From assembly GCA_900319245.1 (NCBI GenBank), contig ONNQ01000027.1, positions 1-53,094 of the forward strand: 53,094 nt of DNA, read 5' to 3'. Under the pieces are notes generated by a model. That model saw only the letters and a list, made by a program, of their open reading frames with translations, searched no databases and had not been told where the DNA came from. The position numbers were made by a program, and so were the translations under genes. Source of the DNA: an uncultured Lachnospiraceae bacterium. Its GTDB lineage: Bacteria; Bacillota; Clostridia; Lachnospirales; Lachnospiraceae. How positions within the stretch are numbered: the stretch's first letter is position 1; each line of letters begins with the position of its first letter. Below, piece after piece: positions 8,757-38,537 of the stretch.

Positions 8757-10340
8757 ATGAGCAGAGAACCAACAATTAGAGAACGGATGTTGTATCTGCT
8801 TTCTCCGAGGAGAGGAACAGATGCTTACATCCGCAGGATGTCAAAGGAGCTTCCGGAAGCCGTCCCAGACAGATCAAAAACACCGAAGATGAGCTATGGT
8901 AGCCATGGCGCAAGCCAGATTCTTTCAAGCCTGATCGGGTGGGTGATAGACGGGGGCGACTCCGAAGACAATATTGACCTGTATTCCTCAACGCTCAGAC
9001 AAAGGGCAAGGGATTTGTATGCAGGCGGAGGACTTGCCAGAAGCGGACCTCAGACGCTTACAACGTCGGTTGTAGGTTGGGGGATCCAGCCTAAACCAAA
9101 GCTCGATGGTGAATTCCTTGGCATGAGCGATGATGCCCGGGAAGAAACCGAGAGAACAATCCTGCGGGAATTCCGCCTGTGGGCGGAAAACACGATGTGT
9201 GATGCGGAACGGCAGCAGAACTTCTACGGACTTCAGAGCTTGGCTTTTTTGTCGATGCTGATGTCCGGCGATGTGTTCGCATTGTTCGGGATGAAAGAGA
9301 ACAAGAGAACGCCGTATCAAACAACGATCCGGCTCCTGGAAGCTGACCGGATCAGCACTCCGGAGACTTCCGGGGATAGTGAGAGCCGCGAAACAGATTC
9401 CGGGGGACGCATCATTGACGGTGTGGAGATTGACAAAGAAGGCGAAGTCATCCGCTATTACATCGCCAGCAGAAGCCCGTTGGCACGAGCTAATAATAGC
9501 GAGTTGATCTGGACACCGATCGATGCATTCGGGAAGGACACAGGATATCCCAATATCCTGCACGTTATGACATTTGAGCGGCCGGAGCAGCGCCGCGGTA
9601 TACCGTTTGTTTCAGCAGAGATCGAAGGCGTTAAGCAATTTACACGGTATATGAATTCCGAGCTTGCAGCAAATGTCGTCTCGTCCATGTTGACAGCGTT
9701 TATTGTCAGCGACAGTGATGACGGAAAATTCGGGCTTGAGGATGCTGTAGACGAAGAAGACAAGGTGACGGATGATGATATTCACCTTGAATTGGCACCC
9801 GGAGCGGTTTACAACCTGCCGAAAGGCAAGAAGATCGAGACAGTCAATCCGCTTCGAAGCAACACGCAGTTTGAGTCATTTGTGAATACATCCATCACGA
9901 TCCTTGCTTCCAGCATGGGGATTCCGAAGGAAGTGCTCACAAAGAAGTATGAGAGCAACTACACGGCTGCCAGGGCGGCCCTTCTGGATTTCTGGCGAAC
10001 GGTAAGAGTTTACCGCACGAAGTTTAATGCAAATTTTAACCAGCCCATATATGAGCAATGGCTTTCCGAAGCCGTCGCATCCGGACGTATCAACGCGCCC
10101 GGATTTTTTGATGATCCGGCAATCAGGCAGGCATGGTGCGGGTGCCTTTGGATGGGTGCAAGTATGGGGCACGTTGATCCGCTGAAGGAGGCGAATGCGG
10201 CCGAAAGGCGCATCGCTAACAACATTACAACTCAGGAACAGGAAGCCAGCGAGTACAACGGCAACAACTGGGACGAGAACATCAAGCAGCGCAAGAAGGA
10301 AATCAAGGAGACGCAGCAGATGGGGAGGGAAGAGGAATGA
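8757..10340 (+). CDS. Portal protein, lambda gpB family
   Basis: A 527-residue portal. Family features: an N-terminal YGSHGAS and the SSTLRQRARDLYAGGGLARS block, then GWGIQPKP, a LEADRI beta-strand region, HVMTFERPEQRRGIPFVS, and the C-terminal stem/wing with KEVLTKKYESNYTAARAALLDFW. It forms the dodecameric ring at one capsid vertex through which DNA passes and to which the tail joins. It overlaps the protease gene by 4 bases (ATGA). Confidence 0.92.
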   Translation: MSREPTIRERMLYLLSPRRGTDAYIRRMSKELPEAVPDRSKTPKMSYGSHGASQILSSLIGWVIDGGDSEDNIDLYSSTLRQRARDLYAGGGLARSGPQTLTTSVVGWGIQPKPKLDGEFLGMSDDAREETERTILREFRLWAENTMCDAERQQNFYGLQSLAFLSMLMSGDVFALFGMKENKRTPYQTTIRLLEADRISTPETSGDSESRETDSGGRIIDGVEIDKEGEVIRYYIASRSPLARANNSELIWTPIDAFGKDTGYPNILHVMTFERPEQRRGIPFVSAEIEGVKQFTRYMNSELAANVVSSMLTAFIVSDSDDGKFGLEDAVDEEDKVTDDDIHLELAPGAVYNLPKGKKIETVNPLRSNTQFESFVNTSITILASSMGIPKEVLTKKYESNYTAARAALLDFWRTVRVYRTKFNANFNQPIYEQWLSEAVASGRINAPGFFDDPAIRQAWCGCLWMGASMGHVDPLKEANAAERRIANNITTQEQEASEYNGNNWDENIKQRKKEIKETQQMGREEE

Positions 10341-32146: not shown

Positions 32147-32318
32147 CTGCTCTGCGAATTGCATTAAAACGCTGAACGAATTCGCGCTGATTCGTTTCAA
32201 CAGATGCGGTCCTATCGAAAAAAGGATTAATTAAATACTTCAGCGCAATCACATCTTCCGCATCCATATTCTCCATTTCGTCGGCTGTCTTGTGCTGATG
32301 CGGCGGCCATAGGCGCAT
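32127..32318 (-). CDS. C-terminal half of a split hypothetical protein (or small gene)
   Basis: A 63-residue leftward ORF. Its later part, DEMENMDAEDVIALKYLINP and NQREFVQRFNAIRRAEKAV, is protein-like. Its first residues overlap the end of the gene at 32227-32460 by 92 bases in another frame. Such a long overlap is rare in phages, so I think both are pieces of one gene broken by a frameshift near 32290-32320. No ribosome site is visible for its ATG. Confidence 0.45.
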   Translation of the reverse strand: MRLWPPHQHKTADEMENMDAEDVIALKYLINPFFDRTASVETNQREFVQRFNAIRRAEKAVKG

Positions 32319-32460
32319 AGCACCATTCCGGCCACTGCATATCAGGATCGCTCCCGCGGAGTGAATGGAAATACGCCATCTGCTCCCAAGCTTCAGGGTA
32401 TTCGCCTTCCACTTTGCGCATCAGATCCAATGGAACGCATCTATATTTTTTCTTACTCAT
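32227..32460 (-). CDS. Hypothetical protein with WPEWCYAPM motif, likely frameshifted
   Basis: A 77-residue leftward ORF: MSKKKYRCVPLDLMRKVEGE, YPEAWEQMAYFHSL, then WPEWCYAPMAAA. The WPxWCYxPM motif occurs at the N-terminus of a longer phage/plasmid protein family in Clostridia. I recall a loose similarity to AcrVA2-like proteins but cannot confirm it. After the motif the frame degenerates (SAQDSRRNGEYGCGRCD) while another frame continues sensibly, so the 3' part is probably shifted. Two copies of the 20-nt leader element precede it. Confidence 0.5.
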   Translation of the reverse strand: MSKKKYRCVPLDLMRKVEGEYPEAWEQMAYFHSLRGSDPDMQWPEWCYAPMAAASAQDSRRNGEYGCGRCDCAEVFN

Positions 32461-32479: not shown

Positions 32480-32525
32480 TAAAATGATCCTGCGGCGTCG
32501 CAAATCAAAATGATTCGGCGGCGTT
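32480..32525 (-). repeat. Leader element copies a and b (paired 20-mers)
   Basis: Two copies of a 20-nt element at 32480-32499 and 32506-32525 (plus-strand consensus TAAAATGATTYYSCGGCGTT), separated by only 6 bases. Copy a ends 19 bases before the start codon of the 32227-32460 gene. No hammerhead lies between them, unlike the pairs at 34716-34817 and 35095-35206. Confidence 0.8.
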
Positions 32526-32715
32526 ATTCCTGGCTTCGCTTTATGTCGTCCCGGATAAGCTTTCTGATATATCCAGCGGCATCGCGTCCTTTTGAATCAA
32601 GCCACTTTAGGATATCTTGATCATTAACATTATTAAATTGAATCTCACGCCTAGTTGTATTTTGCTTTCGCCATGAGTTTTGTCTTTCTATCTGGTGATG
32701 TTTTCTCTCGTTCAT
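32524..32715 (-). CDS. Ribbon-helix-helix-like small protein
   Basis: A 63-residue basic protein: MNERKHHQIERQNSWRKQNT then REIQFNNVNDQDILKWLDSK and AAGYIRKLIRDDIKRSQE. The second half has the strand-helix-helix pattern of RHH repressors (short strand, DILKWLD helix, AAGYIRKLIRDDI helix). AGGAGGG precedes the ATG. It may control the leftward operon, for example through the palindrome at 35861-35874. Confidence 0.65.
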   Translation of the reverse strand: MNERKHHQIERQNSWRKQNTTRREIQFNNVNDQDILKWLDSKGRDAAGYIRKLIRDDIKRSQE

Positions 32716-32756
32716 GGTTGTTCCCTCCTGTGCATACATCATAGCACGGAAGGGGC

Positions 32757-33431
32757 TTACGCCCCAACCGAATAACTGTACAGCTTGCCAAATTCTGCGA
32801 GTCTGAGGTAATTTCTCTCAATACGCATAGTCAGCTCGTGATTTTCGTATTTTGTCCGGACGGTGATCGGTTTAGTATTAGTTTTGAATGCGTCGCGGAT
32901 CGGGCGCGTCAGACCGTTGTAGCTTGTTCCTGACAAGCCGCGTTTGGCTTCCAGCTGGCGGAGTACGGCGGTGTGCTTGCCCTTAAGCTGTACTACCTGA
33001 TAAAAGTCAACGTTGGTCTGATCGTAGCCCCATTCAGTATAGTAAATATCACCGATAAATACACCGTCTGCGTTTTGTGACTCAAACTGCCGGGATTTCT
33101 GATAAGCCGCATGAGCAGAAAACTCCTCGGGGGTATATTCCATAAGGCGCTTCTCAACGGCTGAAAGCTCTGTCTTGTCATGTGCATACATGTCCTGAAG
33201 CGCGATCATTTGGGCCGCACATTCATCGTCTGTGAGATATCCCAGGCCTAGCATGTCCCGGTCGTATGCCGTCGCCTCGCGCGCGTAATGCACAACCTCA
33301 TCCGGATGCTTTTCTGCGTATTGTGCAGCTGCCTGTTCAGGCGACTCCGCCAGTTCTGCAGAATATGTATACATGCTGACGATCTTCTTCGATTCTGTTT
33401 TCTTCCCATGCGTAATAATATATCGTGACAT
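32757..33431 (-). CDS. Accessory protein with WGYDQTNVDFYQV motif
   Basis: A 224-residue protein. The start is ATG 33431 (MSRYIITHGKKTESKKIV), close behind leader element c. The N-terminal two thirds are helical and acidic. The C-terminal third has a beta domain with DIYYTEWGYDQTNVDFYQVV and MRIERNYLRLAEFGKLY. The Y/WGYxQTNVDFYQV motif recurs in conserved unknown proteins of gut phages and plasmids, often beside DUF3560 genes as here. No function is established to my knowledge. Its stop region forms a GGGGC/GCCCC hairpin (32752-32765). Confidence 0.7.
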   Translation of the reverse strand: MSRYIITHGKKTESKKIVSMYTYSAELAESPEQAAAQYAEKHPDEVVHYAREATAYDRDMLGLGYLTDDECAAQMIALQDMYAHDKTELSAVEKRLMEYTPEEFSAHAAYQKSRQFESQNADGVFIGDIYYTEWGYDQTNVDFYQVVQLKGKHTAVLRQLEAKRGLSGTSYNGLTRPIRDAFKTNTKPITVRTKYENHELTMRIERNYLRLAEFGKLYSYSVGA

Positions 33432-33448
33432 TGCTTTATCCCCCCATT

Positions 33449-33478
33449 TAAAATGATTCCGGGGCGTTGCTGACGCCC
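33449..33478 (-). other. Leader element c with 5' hairpin
   Basis: Copy c of the 20-nt element (33449-33468) ends 17 bases before the start at 33431. On the minus strand it is preceded by GGGGCGT CAGCA ACGCCCC, so the element's own 5' half is one arm of a perfect 7-bp hairpin. The left arm GGGCGTC resembles the 3' half of the hammerhead at 35120-35181, perhaps a deletion remnant. Confidence 0.7.
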
Positions 33479-33490
33479 CGCGTATAATGT

Positions 33491-34699
33491 TCATGCTGAT
33501 CGCTTGCGCCAGATTCCATCAAAGCCATCTGTAACCTTGATAGCCCATTCATTGGCATTCGCCCAGGGGAGTTGATGTGGTTTTCTGATGAATGGCTTTT
33601 CGGAACCGTGCTGCATGGTAACTGTGCTGGCGGATGATTTTATGATCGTGTATGTTGCATTCTCATAGCTGCTGTTTTCCGGGTTCCATCGATGACAGTT
33701 GAACGTATCTCCGATATTAAAAGGATGCTGCGGAGTTTCTTTCACTGCGTCGCTGACGATCTGAAGAATCTCGGCGTATGCGAATTTGAGAACACTACCA
33801 GTTGACAGCTTGGCAGTGATATTCTTCGGACCGGCCGACACAACAACCGCAGTGCCGAATCGCTGAACTTTTACAGTGTATCCGGGTTTGATGTTGGCCT
33901 TCGAGAATTGCGTCCCGCCCAGATCCTCAAGGCATCCCTGATAGAATCCCAGCTCGTCTAGCTTGTCTTCCATCAGATCAAGTTGATCATTAAGCCATTC
34001 CTGGATTTTTTCAGCCGTATATGGTTCTCCTGCATAATTCGAAAATGTTTTCCCGGCGTTCATTTCCTGCAGCATTTTCTCATTCGATTCAATCCCACGC
34101 TTTAGCGCCCTGATATCACGTTCACGTTCTGCGATCCGGCGCGATACGAATGCCCTGTCTTTTAGTTCTGCCTGTCCCGCCGTTGTTCTGGCGGCTGCAG
34201 CGCGGTCCTTCCAGTATGCAGACTTCCGGAATTCTTCGAATCCCTTATCAAAGGCCGCGAACATTTTATTACGGCGATTTGTAAATGATCTGCCGGCGTT
34301 TGTGTTAATGTTCGGCTGCGTGAAAAATGCAATATCCCCGTGCATATCACGAATGGGTTTTTGCAGGGTTTCACCGCGTGCAGCGGCATTGTCTGCATAT
34401 CCTTCGTAGCGATCCGCGCGACGGTCCGCGCGTTCTGCCTTCTGCTGCATCTGCTCCGCGAAGCTCATCTTTTCGCCCGTTTTCCCGGCGTCTTCCAGCC
34501 CGATTGACTTAGCGATTTCCCGCGGATAATACAGATTCGGACGCTTGCGGCGTGATATCCAGCAGCCTGAATGGCGCCCCCAAAGAAACGCACCTTTTAT
34601 AGCGCTCTTTTGTTCATCAGATAGAGCAGTATAAGTGGATTTTTCAAAATGCAATTCAAGCTTACCTGTTTCCAGGTTCTCAATAAAATAATTGTCCAT
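33491..34699 (-). CDS. DUF3560-domain protein
   Basis: A 402-residue protein. N-terminal FLWGRHSGCWISRRKRPN, then a DUF3560-type region (AERADRRADRYEGYADNAAA; GRSFTNRRNKMFAAFDKGFE; FRKSAYWKDRAAAARTTAG) rich in Arg-Ala helices. The C-terminal part has two small beta domains (KPGYTVKVQRFGTAVVVSAG; FNIGDTFNCHRWNPENSSYE). DUF3560 proteins are common on plasmids and phages of gut bacteria, often with other polyvalent domains; biochemical role unknown. The start is preceded by AAAGGGAG and leader element d, 16 bases upstream. Confidence 0.75.
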   Translation of the reverse strand: MDNYFIENLETGKLELHFEKSTYTALSDEQKSAIKGAFLWGRHSGCWISRRKRPNLYYPREIAKSIGLEDAGKTGEKMSFAEQMQQKAERADRRADRYEGYADNAAARGETLQKPIRDMHGDIAFFTQPNINTNAGRSFTNRRNKMFAAFDKGFEEFRKSAYWKDRAAAARTTAGQAELKDRAFVSRRIAERERDIRALKRGIESNEKMLQEMNAGKTFSNYAGEPYTAEKIQEWLNDQLDLMEDKLDELGFYQGCLEDLGGTQFSKANIKPGYTVKVQRFGTAVVVSAGPKNITAKLSTGSVLKFAYAEILQIVSDAVKETPQHPFNIGDTFNCHRWNPENSSYENATYTIIKSSASTVTMQHGSEKPFIRKPHQLPWANANEWAIKVTDGFDGIWRKRSA

Positions 34700-34715
34700 A
34701 GTCCCACTCCCTTTC

Positions 34716-34735
34716 TAAAATGATTTTGCGGCGTT
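34716..34735 (-). repeat. Leader element d
   Basis: TAAAATGATTTTGCGGCGTT on the plus strand, that is AACGCCGCAAAATCATTTTA in the direction of transcription. It lies 16 bases before the start of the DUF3560 gene and directly after the 3' product end of the hammerhead at 34740-34803. Confidence 0.8.
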
Positions 34736-34739
34736 AGTT

Positions 34740-34803
34740 TTCCGCGACAATCCCCGAAGGGATTGTTTCGGCCGGTCACAGTCCGGCACTCGTCAGGCGG
34801 AAT
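34740..34803 (-). ncRNA. Hammerhead ribozyme (type I), copy 2
   Basis: Read on the minus strand. Core CTGACGA and GAAA; stem II is GCCGG/CCGGC with loop ACTGTGA plus a closing G-C pair and a bulged T. Stem III is ACAATCCC/GGGATTGT closed by a TTCG tetraloop. GTC marks the cleavage site, and stem I is TTCCGC/GCGGAA. All core nucleotides are present. Predicted cleavage falls between plus-strand 34746 and 34745, leaving a 5' end 46 bases before the DUF3560 start. It is open at stem I, so type I. Confidence 0.9.
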
Positions 34804-34817
34804 GATTCGACGGCGTT
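34798..34817 (-). repeat. Leader element e
   Basis: CGGAATGATTCGACGGCGTT on the plus strand. Its 3' end on the minus strand (CATTCCG) supplies part of the 5' strand of hammerhead stem I, so element and ribozyme overlap structurally. With copy d it brackets the ribozyme. Confidence 0.75.
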
Positions 34818-34828
34818 GCCCTGTAGCG

Positions 34829-35029
34829 TTAATTGTCGTCGTATGTATCTGATACCGTTACAACAAGAATGCCGTCCGCTGTTGTCCCGATCTGCAGGAC
34901 ATCGCAATCTTTGTACAGTTCAATATTGGCAGGATCGGTGCACTTGTCTGCAATCTGCCCGCAAACATCAACAATTACTTCGACATTCGTTAATCCGTCG
35001 AGTTTATCCATGATTTCATTAAGCTTCAT
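34829..35029 (-). CDS. Small acidic hypothetical protein
   Basis: A 66-residue acidic protein: MKLNEIMDKLDGLTNVEVIV, DVCGQIADKCTDPANIELYK, then LQIGTTADGILVVTVSDTYD. Predicted beta-alpha-beta. AAAGGA precedes ATG 35029. It is flanked on both sides by ribozyme/element units, so its transcript would be cut both before and after it. Function unknown. Confidence 0.6.
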   Translation of the reverse strand: MKLNEIMDKLDGLTNVEVIVDVCGQIADKCTDPANIELYKDCDVLQIGTTADGILVVTVSDTYDDN

Positions 35030-35094
35030 GATTTTGTCCTTTCTCCCCGTCGTGCCGGTAGGTCAGCAACTGTTAGGATTATGTATTTTGCTGC

Positions 35095-35114
35095 CGGAAT
35101 GATTTCCCGGCGTT
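35095..35114 (-). repeat. Leader element f
   Basis: CGGAATGATTTCCCGGCGTT on the plus strand, 65 bases before the start at 35029 and 5 bases after the 3' end of hammerhead copy 1. Confidence 0.75.
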
Positions 35115-35119
35115 GCGGT

Positions 35120-35181
35120 TTTCCGCGACGCCCTTTCGGGCGTTTCGGGCAGTCACCAACATGCCCCTCATCAGGCGGATT
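35120..35181 (-). ncRNA. Hammerhead ribozyme (type I), copy 1
   Basis: Read on the minus strand. Core CTGATGA and GAAA; stem II is GGCA/TGCC with a closing G-C pair, a bulged G and loop TGTTGGTGAC. Stem III is ACGCCC/GGGCGT closed by GAAA. GTC is the cleavage triplet and stem I is TCCGC/GCGGA. It begins at the stop codon of the J-domain gene, so the cut (between plus-strand 35127 and 35126) would separate that gene's mRNA from the rest of the operon. Different loops from copy 2 but covarying stems. Confidence 0.9.
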
Positions 35182-35678
35182 CAGGCTGAAATGTTTTCGC
35201 GGCGTTCCTGCTCAGCCGCGTATTTTTCCGAACCGTACATATCCCGTATTTCATCCATGCTGCAAATGTGTTTCCCGCGCTTGCGGAACGGCCCTTCATG
35301 CCAGTACCAGCACTGCTTATTGCCGGAAAATCTGAAGCCCATGCCCTTCAGGGCACCTTTAACGGGCCGAGTGTCGCCGGAAACCCATATCCAGGATCCA
35401 CAAACTTCCACATCAACACCCATCCGAAGAAGGGCGTTAATCATGTCCATAAACGATTCCGCCGTCCCCGTCGCGGCCTTCGTGTAGAAGGCTCCTTCGG
35501 CATTCTGGTGAACGTCTTTCAGACGTTCCCACGCAGTGGTAAATTCCTGCTGCATGTCCTGAAATTCCCGGGTTGTATCCCGGTCCGGGTTGTTATCAGG
35601 ATGCAGCTTTCCGGCCGCTTCCCGATATGCCTTTTTCAGTTCTTCAGCTGTTTTACAGTCAGTAAAGTATCTACTCAT
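35181..35678 (-). CDS. J-domain (DnaJ-like) protein
   Basis: A 165-residue protein, first gene of the leftward operon. Residues 1-60 are a J-domain: KTAEELKKAYREAAGKLHPD with the HPD motif, and DMQQEFTTAWERLKDVHQN. The C-terminal part has WIWVSGDTRPVKGALKGMGF and NKQCWYWHEGPF, a small domain common in phage and plasmid J-proteins. It may recruit host DnaK. Its last codons contain a seventh copy (g) of the 20-nt element (35187-35206), encoding RRENISA. Confidence 0.85.
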   Translation of the reverse strand: MSRYFTDCKTAEELKKAYREAAGKLHPDNNPDRDTTREFQDMQQEFTTAWERLKDVHQNAEGAFYTKAATGTAESFMDMINALLRMGVDVEVCGSWIWVSGDTRPVKGALKGMGFRFSGNKQCWYWHEGPFRKRGKHICSMDEIRDMYGSEKYAAEQERRENISA

Positions 35679-36780: not shown

Positions 36781-38352
36781 TTAAAGCGTAATAAAAAGAT
36801 TCACGCCGTCCCATGTACAAGTCTTCACTACAGAGCGAACGATCTCGTTGCGTTCTTTGTCGTTAAATCCATCTAGCCCTGATATTAACCTGGTTATTTC
36901 CGCAATAGCTTTAAGAGAATCTTTTTCGCGTGTCATTTTGCGCTTTGATTCGTGTTCTATATCCGTAAGTTCTTTTTGCAATCTGCTTTTCTCTGAATCG
37001 AGACGCTTTATCTCCGCAATGATGTATTTTGATATAGAAGATGATTCAGCCAGAGCAAGAGATGCAGTTAACCGCCCGATTTTACTGTCGCAGGATGTAA
37101 TTGAAGAGAGAATCGCTTTCGGATCGCGAAGCGGTTTATCCTCGGTTTTCTTCAGATATTGATTTATCAGCCGCGGATCGGCTGCAATGTCCCGAAAGAT
37201 GCTGATCAATCGGCTGTCGAGCTTGTCACACGCCGTCTGGCCCATATCGCAATAGCTGACCCCCTGACGCATCCTTTTGCGGCAGTAGTACCAAGAAGAG
37301 CATGAACCATCGACTCGTTTCTTTCTTGATACCGACATCAATGACCCGCATTTACAACGTAATACGCCCTTCATCAGTGGGACCGGCCATTTAGCATCCT
37401 TTATGCATTTGTGCTCGGAAAAACGGGACTGTACAAGCAGCCACTTATCGGCCTTCATGAATGGCTCATGATGCCCCAAGCAAACGGTCCATTTTTCTGG
37501 AGGCTGAAGCTGATGCTTCTTGTTTTTGCCAGTCGTCCGACCGTAAACCATAACGCCCACAGAACCATCCCATTTTTCACGCGGGGAATCTGGATCCATA
37601 ATGCATCCTTTGTTGGCATAGTAGTCGTATACTTCCGGAGTAGCTTCCACACAGAATGGCATGGTAAGAATCTTGTAGAGCTGCGTTGACGAGAAAAATT
37701 TACCCGACAGAGTTTTGATGCCAGAATTTTTGAATTGTGTTTCCATGCCCTGTAGGCTTCGATTAGATGAAAGAAATGTGTCAAATATACGATTGACATA
37801 GTCAACGCCGTCAGGATCGGGAATGATGGTTACATGCTTCCTCCCGTGTTCAACAATGCTTTTACGGACATATCCCACAGGGGGATTCCCGCCGGTCCAA
37901 TATCCTTTTCGCGCAAGCCCGAGCATGTTGTCCGAGACGCGCTCCGCAATTGTTTCTCTTTCCATCTGAGCAAAAACGGCAGTAACAAACATCATCGCCC
38001 GGCCAATTGGCGTTGTTGTATCAATTGTCTCCTTGATCGAAATGAACATGACTCCATGTTCTTCTAGCATTGCATACATGTTAGAGAAATCGCGGACATT
38101 CCTTGATAGCCTGTCCAGCTGGTAAACAACCAGGGCATCGGCAGCGTTTTCACGAATTCTGGAAAACATAAGCTGCAGCTGGGGCCGATCAGTATTGGCC
38201 CCGGTAAAATCCTCATCTGAGAAACACTCCCAACTGTCAATTTTGCCATGGAACTTCGACTCGCAGTAATCCAGACACATGCGTAGCTGATTATCAACAG
38301 AATCGGATTTGTCAGAGAATACAGATTTACGTCCATAGCAGAAGAAGCGCAC
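36781..38352 (-). CDS. int: Large serine recombinase (integrase)
   Basis: A 523-residue protein starting at GTG 38352 with AGGAGGTGATTCT in perfect position; the longer upstream frame is not needed. Residues 1-150 are the resolvase domain with CYGRKS (catalytic Ser near residue 10), VVYQLDRLSRNVRDFSNMYA and GRAMMFVTAVFAQMERETIAER. Then come the recombinase domain (GYWTGGNPPVGYVRK), a zinc ribbon (CKCGSLMS ... WYYCRKRM ... YCDMG) and a C-terminal coiled coil. It integrates the phage by attP x attB exchange. attP is probably beside the gene, either 36590-36780 or 38353-38537. Confidence 0.92.
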   Translation of the reverse strand: MRFFCYGRKSVFSDKSDSVDNQLRMCLDYCESKFHGKIDSWECFSDEDFTGANTDRPQLQLMFSRIRENAADALVVYQLDRLSRNVRDFSNMYAMLEEHGVMFISIKETIDTTTPIGRAMMFVTAVFAQMERETIAERVSDNMLGLARKGYWTGGNPPVGYVRKSIVEHGRKHVTIIPDPDGVDYVNRIFDTFLSSNRSLQGMETQFKNSGIKTLSGKFFSSTQLYKILTMPFCVEATPEVYDYYANKGCIMDPDSPREKWDGSVGVMVYGRTTGKNKKHQLQPPEKWTVCLGHHEPFMKADKWLLVQSRFSEHKCIKDAKWPVPLMKGVLRCKCGSLMSVSRKKRVDGSCSSWYYCRKRMRQGVSYCDMGQTACDKLDSRLISIFRDIAADPRLINQYLKKTEDKPLRDPKAILSSITSCDSKIGRLTASLALAESSSISKYIIAEIKRLDSEKSRLQKELTDIEHESKRKMTREKDSLKAIAEITRLISGLDGFNDKERNEIVRSVVKTCTWDGVNLFITL

Positions 38353-38537
38353 AGAATCACCTCCTGTGATATAATGAAAAAGGTCAGAGATTGCCCGTAT
38401 AATGCGGCGGGGTACAATGACCATTGCCGTCTGGTGCTGCAACACCGGGCGGCTTTTATAATACAATTCCTAAACGATATTATTCCTGAATTTGCATTTT
38501 AACTACGAAATCTGTGATAATAAGCACAAAGCATACG

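Follow-up and report, generated by a model that had tools for sequence, protein, structure and literature searches.

A hammerhead ribozyme held between two copies of a short polar element, which we call E, is seen in related operons as a module, and comparison of their sequences shows equivalent gene boundaries that carry it, lack it or have a different ribozyme in its place. We think it probable that the unit serves an anti-restriction-type phage operon as a module for processing and regulation between genes, in which the ribozymes would punctuate the RNA into capped mRNAs and E would serve as an oriented site resembling stoperators or the start-associated sequences (SAS) of mycobacteriophages.

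The window, that is, the whole stretch of 53,094 b analysed here, is contig C50 of a 2.9 Mb MAG (87% complete) and is identical to an IMG/VR contig. The operon runs leftward from 35678 to 32227, with rightward genes on one side and a serine-recombinase gene on the other. It encodes a J-domain protein, a 66-aa protein, a DUF3560 protein, a WGYDQTNVDFYQV protein, a small ribbon-helix-helix (RHH)-like protein and a 77-aa protein. Its features are the following.

36781-38466: serine-recombinase gene, the basis for the prophage context
35181..35678, minus strand: J-domain gene, 165 aa, first in the leftward operon (Pfam DnaJ 5e-8; phrog_15863 4e-42)
35190..35206, minus strand: E copy g, within the 3' end of the J-domain ORF (...ERRENISA*), by motif search
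35117..35180, minus strand: hammerhead 2, type I, predicted cut between 35127 and 35126 (GUC^GCGG), by covariance model (66.9 bits) and fold
35098..35114, minus strand: E copy f, by motif search
34829..35029, minus strand: 66-aa gene (ORF)
34801..34817, minus strand: E copy e, by motif search
34736..34802, minus strand: hammerhead 1, type I, predicted cut between 34746 and 34745, by covariance model (64.8 bits) and fold
34719..34735, minus strand: E copy d, beginning 36 nt before the DUF3560 start codon, by motif search
33491..34699, minus strand: DUF3560 gene, 402 aa (Pfam PF12083 4e-9)
34284..34300, minus strand: E-like copy inside the DUF3560 coding sequence, 1 mismatch, by motif search
34044..34060, minus strand: E copy inside the DUF3560 coding sequence, by motif search
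33452..33468, minus strand: lone E without a ribozyme, beginning 37 nt before the next ATG (33431), by motif search and fold
32757..33431, minus strand: gene with the WGYDQTNVDFYQV motif (phrog_37844 6e-10), start codon picked by eye
32524..32742, minus strand: small ribbon-helix-helix-like gene, member of family F1 (63-72 aa), matched at 4.9e-10 by a profile built without the window, and by alignment
32509..32525, minus strand: E copy over the F1 stop codon (TAACGCC), by motif search
32483..32499, minus strand: second E copy of the tandem pair, degenerate, 26 nt further on, by motif search
32227..32460, minus strand: 77-aa gene, 3' of F1 (ORF)

Two hammerheads in tandem, each between two element copies, had been described here beforehand, and our searches recovered all of these parts where they had been placed, on the minus strand. 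Several details of that preliminary description had to be revised. The element, taken to be a fixed 20-mer, is a 17-nt motif of 6-4-7 layout; copy g, supposed to lie between genes, is contained in the last codons of the J-domain gene; and the list of copies, correct for those it held, lacked the two inside the DUF3560 gene (34060 and 34300). The hairpin at 33449, whose arm was said to resemble the 3' half of the hammerhead, is formed by the element at 33452-33468 pairing with GGGGCG upstream, and the covariance model finds no ribozyme remnant there, so that the resemblance is not supported.

This model, R1, was built from 29 hammerheads of other contigs, the distinct cores among 32 units outside the window. 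On the window it returned hammerhead 2 with an E-value of 2e-14 and hammerhead 1 with 7e-14, and no further match was found in the MAG at an E-value of at most 1, with 150 of 1,596 first-look candidates scored. Both RNAs carry the type I core (CUGANGA ... GAAA, a U-H cleavage site, three stems, stem I open). By their sequences they are type I hammerheads of a distinct subfamily, predicted to self-cleave. The Rfam search of the window gave no hammerhead above the gathering score, which we attribute to insensitivity, because the same search of 17 hammerhead-rich loci likewise gave no Hammerhead_1 at that score. In the 29-sequence alignment, two-sided changes occur in 8 pairs and 54 cells; shuffling gave a mean of 12 cells and equalled the observed count in none of 500 rounds. 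Pairing held in 99.6% of cells, compared with 27-47% when the structure was slid; since stems were required in the selection of the hammerheads, this figure leans towards structure, whereas the two-sided changes do not follow from the selection. A separate stem I-like hairpin lies at 9171-9192 of the window, plus strand (TTCCGCCTG...GCGGAAAACA); it has no ribozyme core, scores 17 bits (E-value 0.03, window search) and is probably due to chance.

The subfamily departs from the usual hammerhead core in two respects: one extra nucleotide stands between A9 and stem II in 32/34 units (U in 30, G in 2), window hammerhead 2 included, and U4C occurs in 3/34. By analogy, the extra core nucleotide may slow cleavage: according to the accessible text of PMC3705267, the plus-strand hammerhead of CChMVd has an extra A at this place, and cleavage by one viroid ribozyme was moderately slower with a related extra A. 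Loop II is complementary to the 3' flank over at least 3 nt in 32 of the 34 units and over at least 4 nt in 23, with the compensating pairs GGUC/GACC, GGUU/AACC, GGCU/AGCC and AGCU/AGCU; window hammerhead 1 has no 3-nt Watson-Crick match of this kind. The same subfamily occurs in the isolated phages Castelnaud (L376, 1215-1279) and FP_Brigit (L377, 3999-4059), whose stretches of 5.3 kb and 8.1 kb hold the hammerhead and neither E nor F1; in Castelnaud, the annotated gene over the hammerhead runs on the opposite strand, and in FP_Brigit, a Faecalibacterium phage, a single such hammerhead lies between two genes.

The common layout is a stop codon, then the hammerhead, then a Shine-Dalgarno sequence and ATG. 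The idea of operon punctuation put forward in the preliminary description is supported. Among the matches listed, 80 of 139 hammerheads have a Shine-Dalgarno sequence and start within 60 nt of the cut, where shuffling gave a mean of 34.6 and a maximum of 50. These hammerhead sets were gathered by pattern scripts with fixed arms, which is a source of bias, and the membership of a few, as in L136, is doubtful.

E is the bipartite motif AACGCC-N4-AAWCATT. Searching the window with AAATGATTNNNCGGCGTT at up to 3 mismatches gave 10 matches, all on one strand and all within 32482-35206 (about 2.7 kb); shuffled windows gave 1.89 on average and 6 at most, and none of 100 reached 10. Nine good copies lie on the sense strand of the operon; coding sequence holds two of these, and another is within the last codons of a gene. 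Elsewhere the orientation is equally strict. Of 18 records picked for holding E, 17 match, with 81 matches confined to a single strand per record and none for the backwards pattern, and 18 loci (195 kb) hold 74 sense and 0 antisense copies. The spacer is 4 nt in 79 of 84 cases, with 0 to 12 tested and again no antisense matches. A strict E was found in 2 of 200 genomes of the host family, the MAG itself being one, and the E leader has no match in named phages. Two other identities were considered for E. A CRISPR-repeat mimic (Racr) was rejected, the exact core pattern occurring 3 times in the 87%-complete MAG, all in the window; an integron attC-like site was weighed and dropped. In the excerpts of the Racr paper, the hammerhead passages concern an engineered hammerhead.

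Placement with respect to genes is varied. Twenty boundaries, some with a ribozyme and some without one, have an E beginning at -33 to -38 relative to the start codon, and the remaining ones have it at -17 to -87, some of the gene starts, taken from a simple caller, being wrong. E also overlaps stop codons (TAACGCC), follows F1 ahead of a terminator-like hairpin in several loci, and forms tandems at 21-28 nt, the distance being exactly 26 in 8 of the 15 pairs closer than 50 nt. Inside ORFs there are 31 copies, read-through ORFs included, and about 20 of them lie in genes judged real, in more than one reading frame; synonymous shuffling predicts 1.6 (maximum 5 in 200 shuffles). At some boundaries of L266 and L240, a recurrent stretch like CCCGCCCCGGAGGTYACGARGGC lies 3' of E; it has no Rfam match and is possibly a further structured RNA. 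This combination of strict orientation with transcription, a rigid spacer, and positions over stops, often about 35 nt before starts and also within genes, appears to be new.

The constant distance at those 20 boundaries, whether or not a ribozyme is present, and the single orientation are what one would expect if E were an RNA or translation element acting in the leader beside the Shine-Dalgarno sequence, as do the SAS of cluster K mycobacteriophages, which according to the available text of PMC3203893 are likewise oriented and are tied to a second motif in about half of the cases. We nevertheless regard this explanation as rather unlikely, in view of the copies at other distances, over stop codons and between F1 and a terminator-like hairpin, and of the excess in coding sequence.

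A second feature, located 3' of the cut, bears directly on the processing that we propose. Cleavage at GUC^GCGG would make GCGG the new 5' end, and a complementary CCGC lies at +8 from the cut in window hammerhead 2 and at +14, within E copy d, in hammerhead 1. Among the matches listed, CCGC occurs at an offset of up to 16 in 42 of 101 hammerheads, against a mean of 5.0 and a maximum of 14 in 500 shuffles; in the units of E contigs, it lies within 26 nt in 31/34. Hammerheads with a GTGG arm (n=32), collected as a test of arm-complement matching, were compared with those having GCGG (n=96). Within 26 nt and among the matches listed, the GCGG arms are accompanied by CCGC in 52/96 and CCAC in 26/96, while the GTGG arms have CCAC in 22/32 and CCGC in 1/32. 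With one hammerhead per locus, arm and complement remain associated (Fisher p 1.6e-5 for CCAC and 8.4e-6 for CCGC). For the GTGG arms, other C-rich words are equally common: within 16 nt, CCAC is present in 11, ACCC in 11 and CCCA in 10 of the 32, and within 26 nt CCAC and CCCA each reach 22/32, partly through their overlap in CCCAC.

Permutation of the arms gave the same picture. The complement of a hammerhead's own arm is found in 74 of the 128 listed hammerheads, where permuted arms gave a mean of 51.6 and a maximum of 66, and for 5-nt arms the count is 34/128 against a mean of 13.9 and a maximum of 24; neither value was reached in 2000 permutations. Restricting the listed hammerheads to one per locus left 57/97 against 39.9 and, for 5-nt arms, 23/97 against 11.3 (0/2000 each), the latter margin being narrow, 23 versus a permuted maximum of 22. 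To judge from these sequences, a hairpin can arise at the 5' end of the mRNA once it is cut. As this second pairing and stem I are mutually exclusive, it is expected only after cutting. We further infer that such a hairpin could protect the mRNA. The repetition of the complement of the downstream stem I arm just 3' of the cut, fitting its own arm better than permuted arms, also appears to be new.

The case for a module comes from matching boundaries in relatives. Between the ArdC-like gene and the GW gene, L005, L008 and L186 have a hammerhead, L235 has RAGATH-5 (Rfam) and L080 has a lone E; empty sites, which the preliminary description had named as its own test, therefore exist for the element-ribozyme-element unit, and the modular presence and absence suggested in the preliminary description is borne out. 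Likewise, in front of the MKLYLEK downstream family, L080 carries a bare E and L075, L110 and L186 carry a hammerhead. Close relatives, too, can differ by a gene and a ribozyme together: L075 and L368, which are 90-95% identical, are set apart by a 122-aa gene and the hammerhead that goes with it. L009 is 96-97% identical to the window and differs from it by a GW gene directly after E copy f, which lies in a stretch of about 1.05 kb just upstream of the 66-aa gene in L009. Occupancy is variable at the ArdC-like to GW boundary and constant at the start of DUF3560, where the hammerhead and E lie upstream in all four E operons (window, L271, L235 and L008), so that some positions are stable. Among 392 genomes surveyed in the order, 2 had a DUF3560 homologue, one of them the MAG itself. 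In another genome of the host family, the 19-kb region around a 44%-identical homologue gave no R1 match, and the DUF3560 protein has no match in named phages.

The architecture of the unit is flexible as well. The gap is 27-34 nt at nine boundaries with E only and 46-85 nt at the other E-only boundaries (simple gene caller), and at boundaries with hammerhead and E it is mostly 106-134 nt (range 88-173, a few with doubtful starts), while the distance of the 3' E to the start codon is often unchanged from one boundary to another. By pattern, 34 hammerhead units have E on both sides in 8, on the 5' side only in 4, on the 3' side only in 11 and on neither side in 11, which argues that the full bracket is not obligatory. 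Other ribozymes occupy further E loci according to Rfam: pistol in L008 and L267, and type II hammerheads in L186, L080 and L263. The unit has no match in plasmids and partial matches in 5 phage records, Castelnaud and FP_Brigit among them. Two matches of the composite search, L004 and L006, were set aside; they have no second half of E and look like chance.

Direct repeats around a ribozyme, together with occupied and empty sites, might recall a mobile RNA cassette, a possibility raised in the preliminary description, and in particular one that is propelled by the chemistry of its ribozyme in the manner of a retrozyme. We hold this to be most improbable. The unit, of about 120 nt, encodes no enzyme, the repeats differ within a unit, and RAGATH-5 takes the same boundary in L235, with pistol and type II hammerheads in other E loci. 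Autonomous mobility is not supported; exchange by recombination through the shared repeats accounts for the pattern. A different view would reduce E to mere boundary homology for cassette recombination, conserved through recent spread and not through function. Near-identical strings of E, hammerhead, E and ribosome-binding site stand ahead of unrelated genes, and relatives that are 90-97% identical differ by a gene or a gene with its hammerhead, as this view would predict; yet the window keeps E while the adjoining leader has diverged, and the coding copies exceed the synonymous null. It is therefore, in our judgement, an unlikely account of E.

A candidate reader of E is family F1. It is present in 19 of 23 E contigs and in 1 of 335 other loci, 8 of the 19 by construction, as the eight F1 seeds were taken from E contigs; with a looser cut, it occurs in 3 of 327 loci without E. 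The GW gene shows a similar distribution (16/23 and 3/335). Of the four E contigs without F1, those in G003 and G565 are truncated and those in G009 and G564 are not. In 8 of 23 rows, E reaches, or all but reaches, the stop codon of F1. The sequence and one predicted model, that of the L080 homologue with helices at 38-46 and 50-65 after an extended stretch, suggest a putative ribbon-helix-helix protein; the predicted model of the window protein has one long helix at 33-62. Pfam and Foldseek gave no match for the fold, and the best PDB sequence match is CopG at an E-value of 0.34. A search based on F1 returned 80 of 93 loci, 71 of them on new contigs, and E was found in only one of these 71 (L402), so that there is no one-to-one link between F1 and E. 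We consider the association of F1 with E, seen at the sequence level, to be a lead, and the finding that a small ribbon-helix-helix-like gene accompanies E to be apparently new.

These observations invite the reading that E is a stoperator-like DNA site, bound in one orientation by the RHH-like F1 protein so as to block elongation or tune the operon, the ribozymes being a separate layer. The asymmetric and rigid 6-4-7 layout places the half-sites about one helical turn apart. E is always oriented with transcription, the J-domain gene that opens the operon has none before it in the window, L009 or L075, and tandem copies as well as the proximity to F1 fit a bound site. In the sections of PMC9283540 available, L5-type stoperators lose their function on reversal. 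A different oriented word, CCGTACC, is present in five further F1 loci (L444, L449, L452, L454 and L457), where the sense/antisense counts are 12/0, 6/0, 8/1, 8/0 and 8/0 (42/1 in total), and at least 4 copies occur in 0/328 control loci. Over all 80 F1 loci, though, CCGTACC gives 43 sense and 6 antisense copies, and oriented repeats as a general property of F1 loci were borne out by neither of two unbiased tests (24/65 F1 loci against 59/157 controls; motif score p 0.10), which gave no separation. The near absence of E from the new F1 loci and the weak fold match also speak against the reading, as do an E in L262 that lies directly after a promoter-like stretch and the tandem spacing of 26, which would put neighbours on opposite faces of the DNA. 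On balance, a purely stoperator-like E is possible but somewhat unlikely.

Further oriented repeats were noted beside these. In L444, L454 and L457, CCGTACC lies in intergenic stretches and at stop codons, and in L444 and L454 also within the F1 gene; the three CCGTACC loci searched with R1 gave no hammerhead. The F1 locus L432 (3695-5584) has a private oriented repeat near stop codons, mostly the doubled GACATTTTCGG (9 sense, 0 antisense), and L392 (5374-5932) has another, TAGTACGCGACTTTT, also near stop codons (5 sense, 0 antisense). The promoter-like stretches of L075, L263, L186 and L262 contain paired operator-like repeats, GGGTGCAAACCCCG in L075, that are unlike E. In hammerhead arrays of Clostridia that have no E, a word of AATCAA type precedes several ribozymes and the next ribosome-binding site. 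One pattern for it gave 32 sense and 0 antisense copies over 13 loci, of which 5 have no match. In the arrays L026, L066, L104, L142, L167 and L244, the word TTCAAATCAAG / TTTTGAATCR lies near the hammerheads, and in L141 and L142 it is also found within the stem III extension.

In the inter-gene processing and regulation module that we favour, the nascent polycistronic RNA would cut itself at GUC^GCGG. On the upstream mRNA, the folded ribozyme body, ending in a 2',3'-cyclic phosphate, would remain as a structured 3' terminus. In the downstream mRNA, GCGG would pair anew with a CCGC close by, in many cases one provided by E, and so build a 5'-terminal hairpin, which may hinder re-ligation and 5' exonucleases and leave the leader with E and the Shine-Dalgarno sequence open. 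E would be a polar site read along transcription, either as DNA by a stoperator-like binder, with the F1 protein as candidate, or as RNA, and units and genes would be swapped by recombination through the shared repeats. A broader and more speculative version, which we ourselves doubt, is a two-layer punctuation code in which a polar, lineage-specific word, read by a small RHH-like protein, would mark gene ends and starts, and interchangeable ribozymes between two word copies would cut the message and cap the downstream mRNA with a hairpin. It would extend to at least three lineages with different words: E with F1 and hammerheads, CCGTACC with F1, and the AATCAA-type word around Clostridia hammerheads.

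The second complement provides a concrete, mutable prediction of what cutting would do, namely generate a capped downstream mRNA, and the empty and ribozyme-swapped boundaries are natural controls. The oriented word and the small gene of DNA-binding type that accompanies it could also help to reach a regulator of anti-restriction operons and serve as a marker in the search for further such operons.

The ribozymes have clear precedents. As far as the text of PMC3088659 available to us goes, Perreault et al. (2011) described clustered hammerheads that flank single prophage genes, with an ardA anti-restriction context, showed cleavage in vitro and in E. coli, suggested processing into gene-length mRNAs, and left open the reason for the rows of hammerheads in prophages. 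The window, with its two same-strand hammerheads beside prophage genes, belongs to this type. The description of the cassette as new hence holds only in part: clustered prophage hammerheads with mRNA processing had been proposed in 2011, whereas the flanking element, the second 3' complement and the empty-site comparison are described here and not in those portions of PMC3088659. In the literature searched, from which subscription journals were mostly absent so that the result carries little weight, we recognised no report of E, the flanking grammar or the 3' complement. The CChMVd hammerhead, as portrayed in the same text of PMC3705267, is that of a viroid and its extra nucleotide is A, in contrast to the U or G of the present units. 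As to RAGATH and pistol ribozymes, Rfam places pistol, type II hammerheads and RAGATH-5 in E loci, where RAGATH-5 replaces the type I unit of relatives.

For E itself, the closest likenesses are two mycobacteriophage systems. The stoperators of cluster A phages, according to the available parts of PMC9283540, are asymmetric sites in short intergenic regions, oriented with transcription, and E resembles them in this. They are 13 bp long, occur throughout the genome and are bound by a two-domain repressor, whereas E is 17 nt long, is confined in the window to one operon, with all ten matches inside the 2.7-kb interval given above, and is also found in coding sequence. The SAS/ESAS of cluster K phages, in the account of PMC3203893 accessible to us, share with E an orientation at gene starts and the frequent company of a second motif; E, unlike them, also occurs at stops and inside genes, and its second motif is a ribozyme. 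The ribozyme class and the prophage context are known, and the modular grammar appears to be new.
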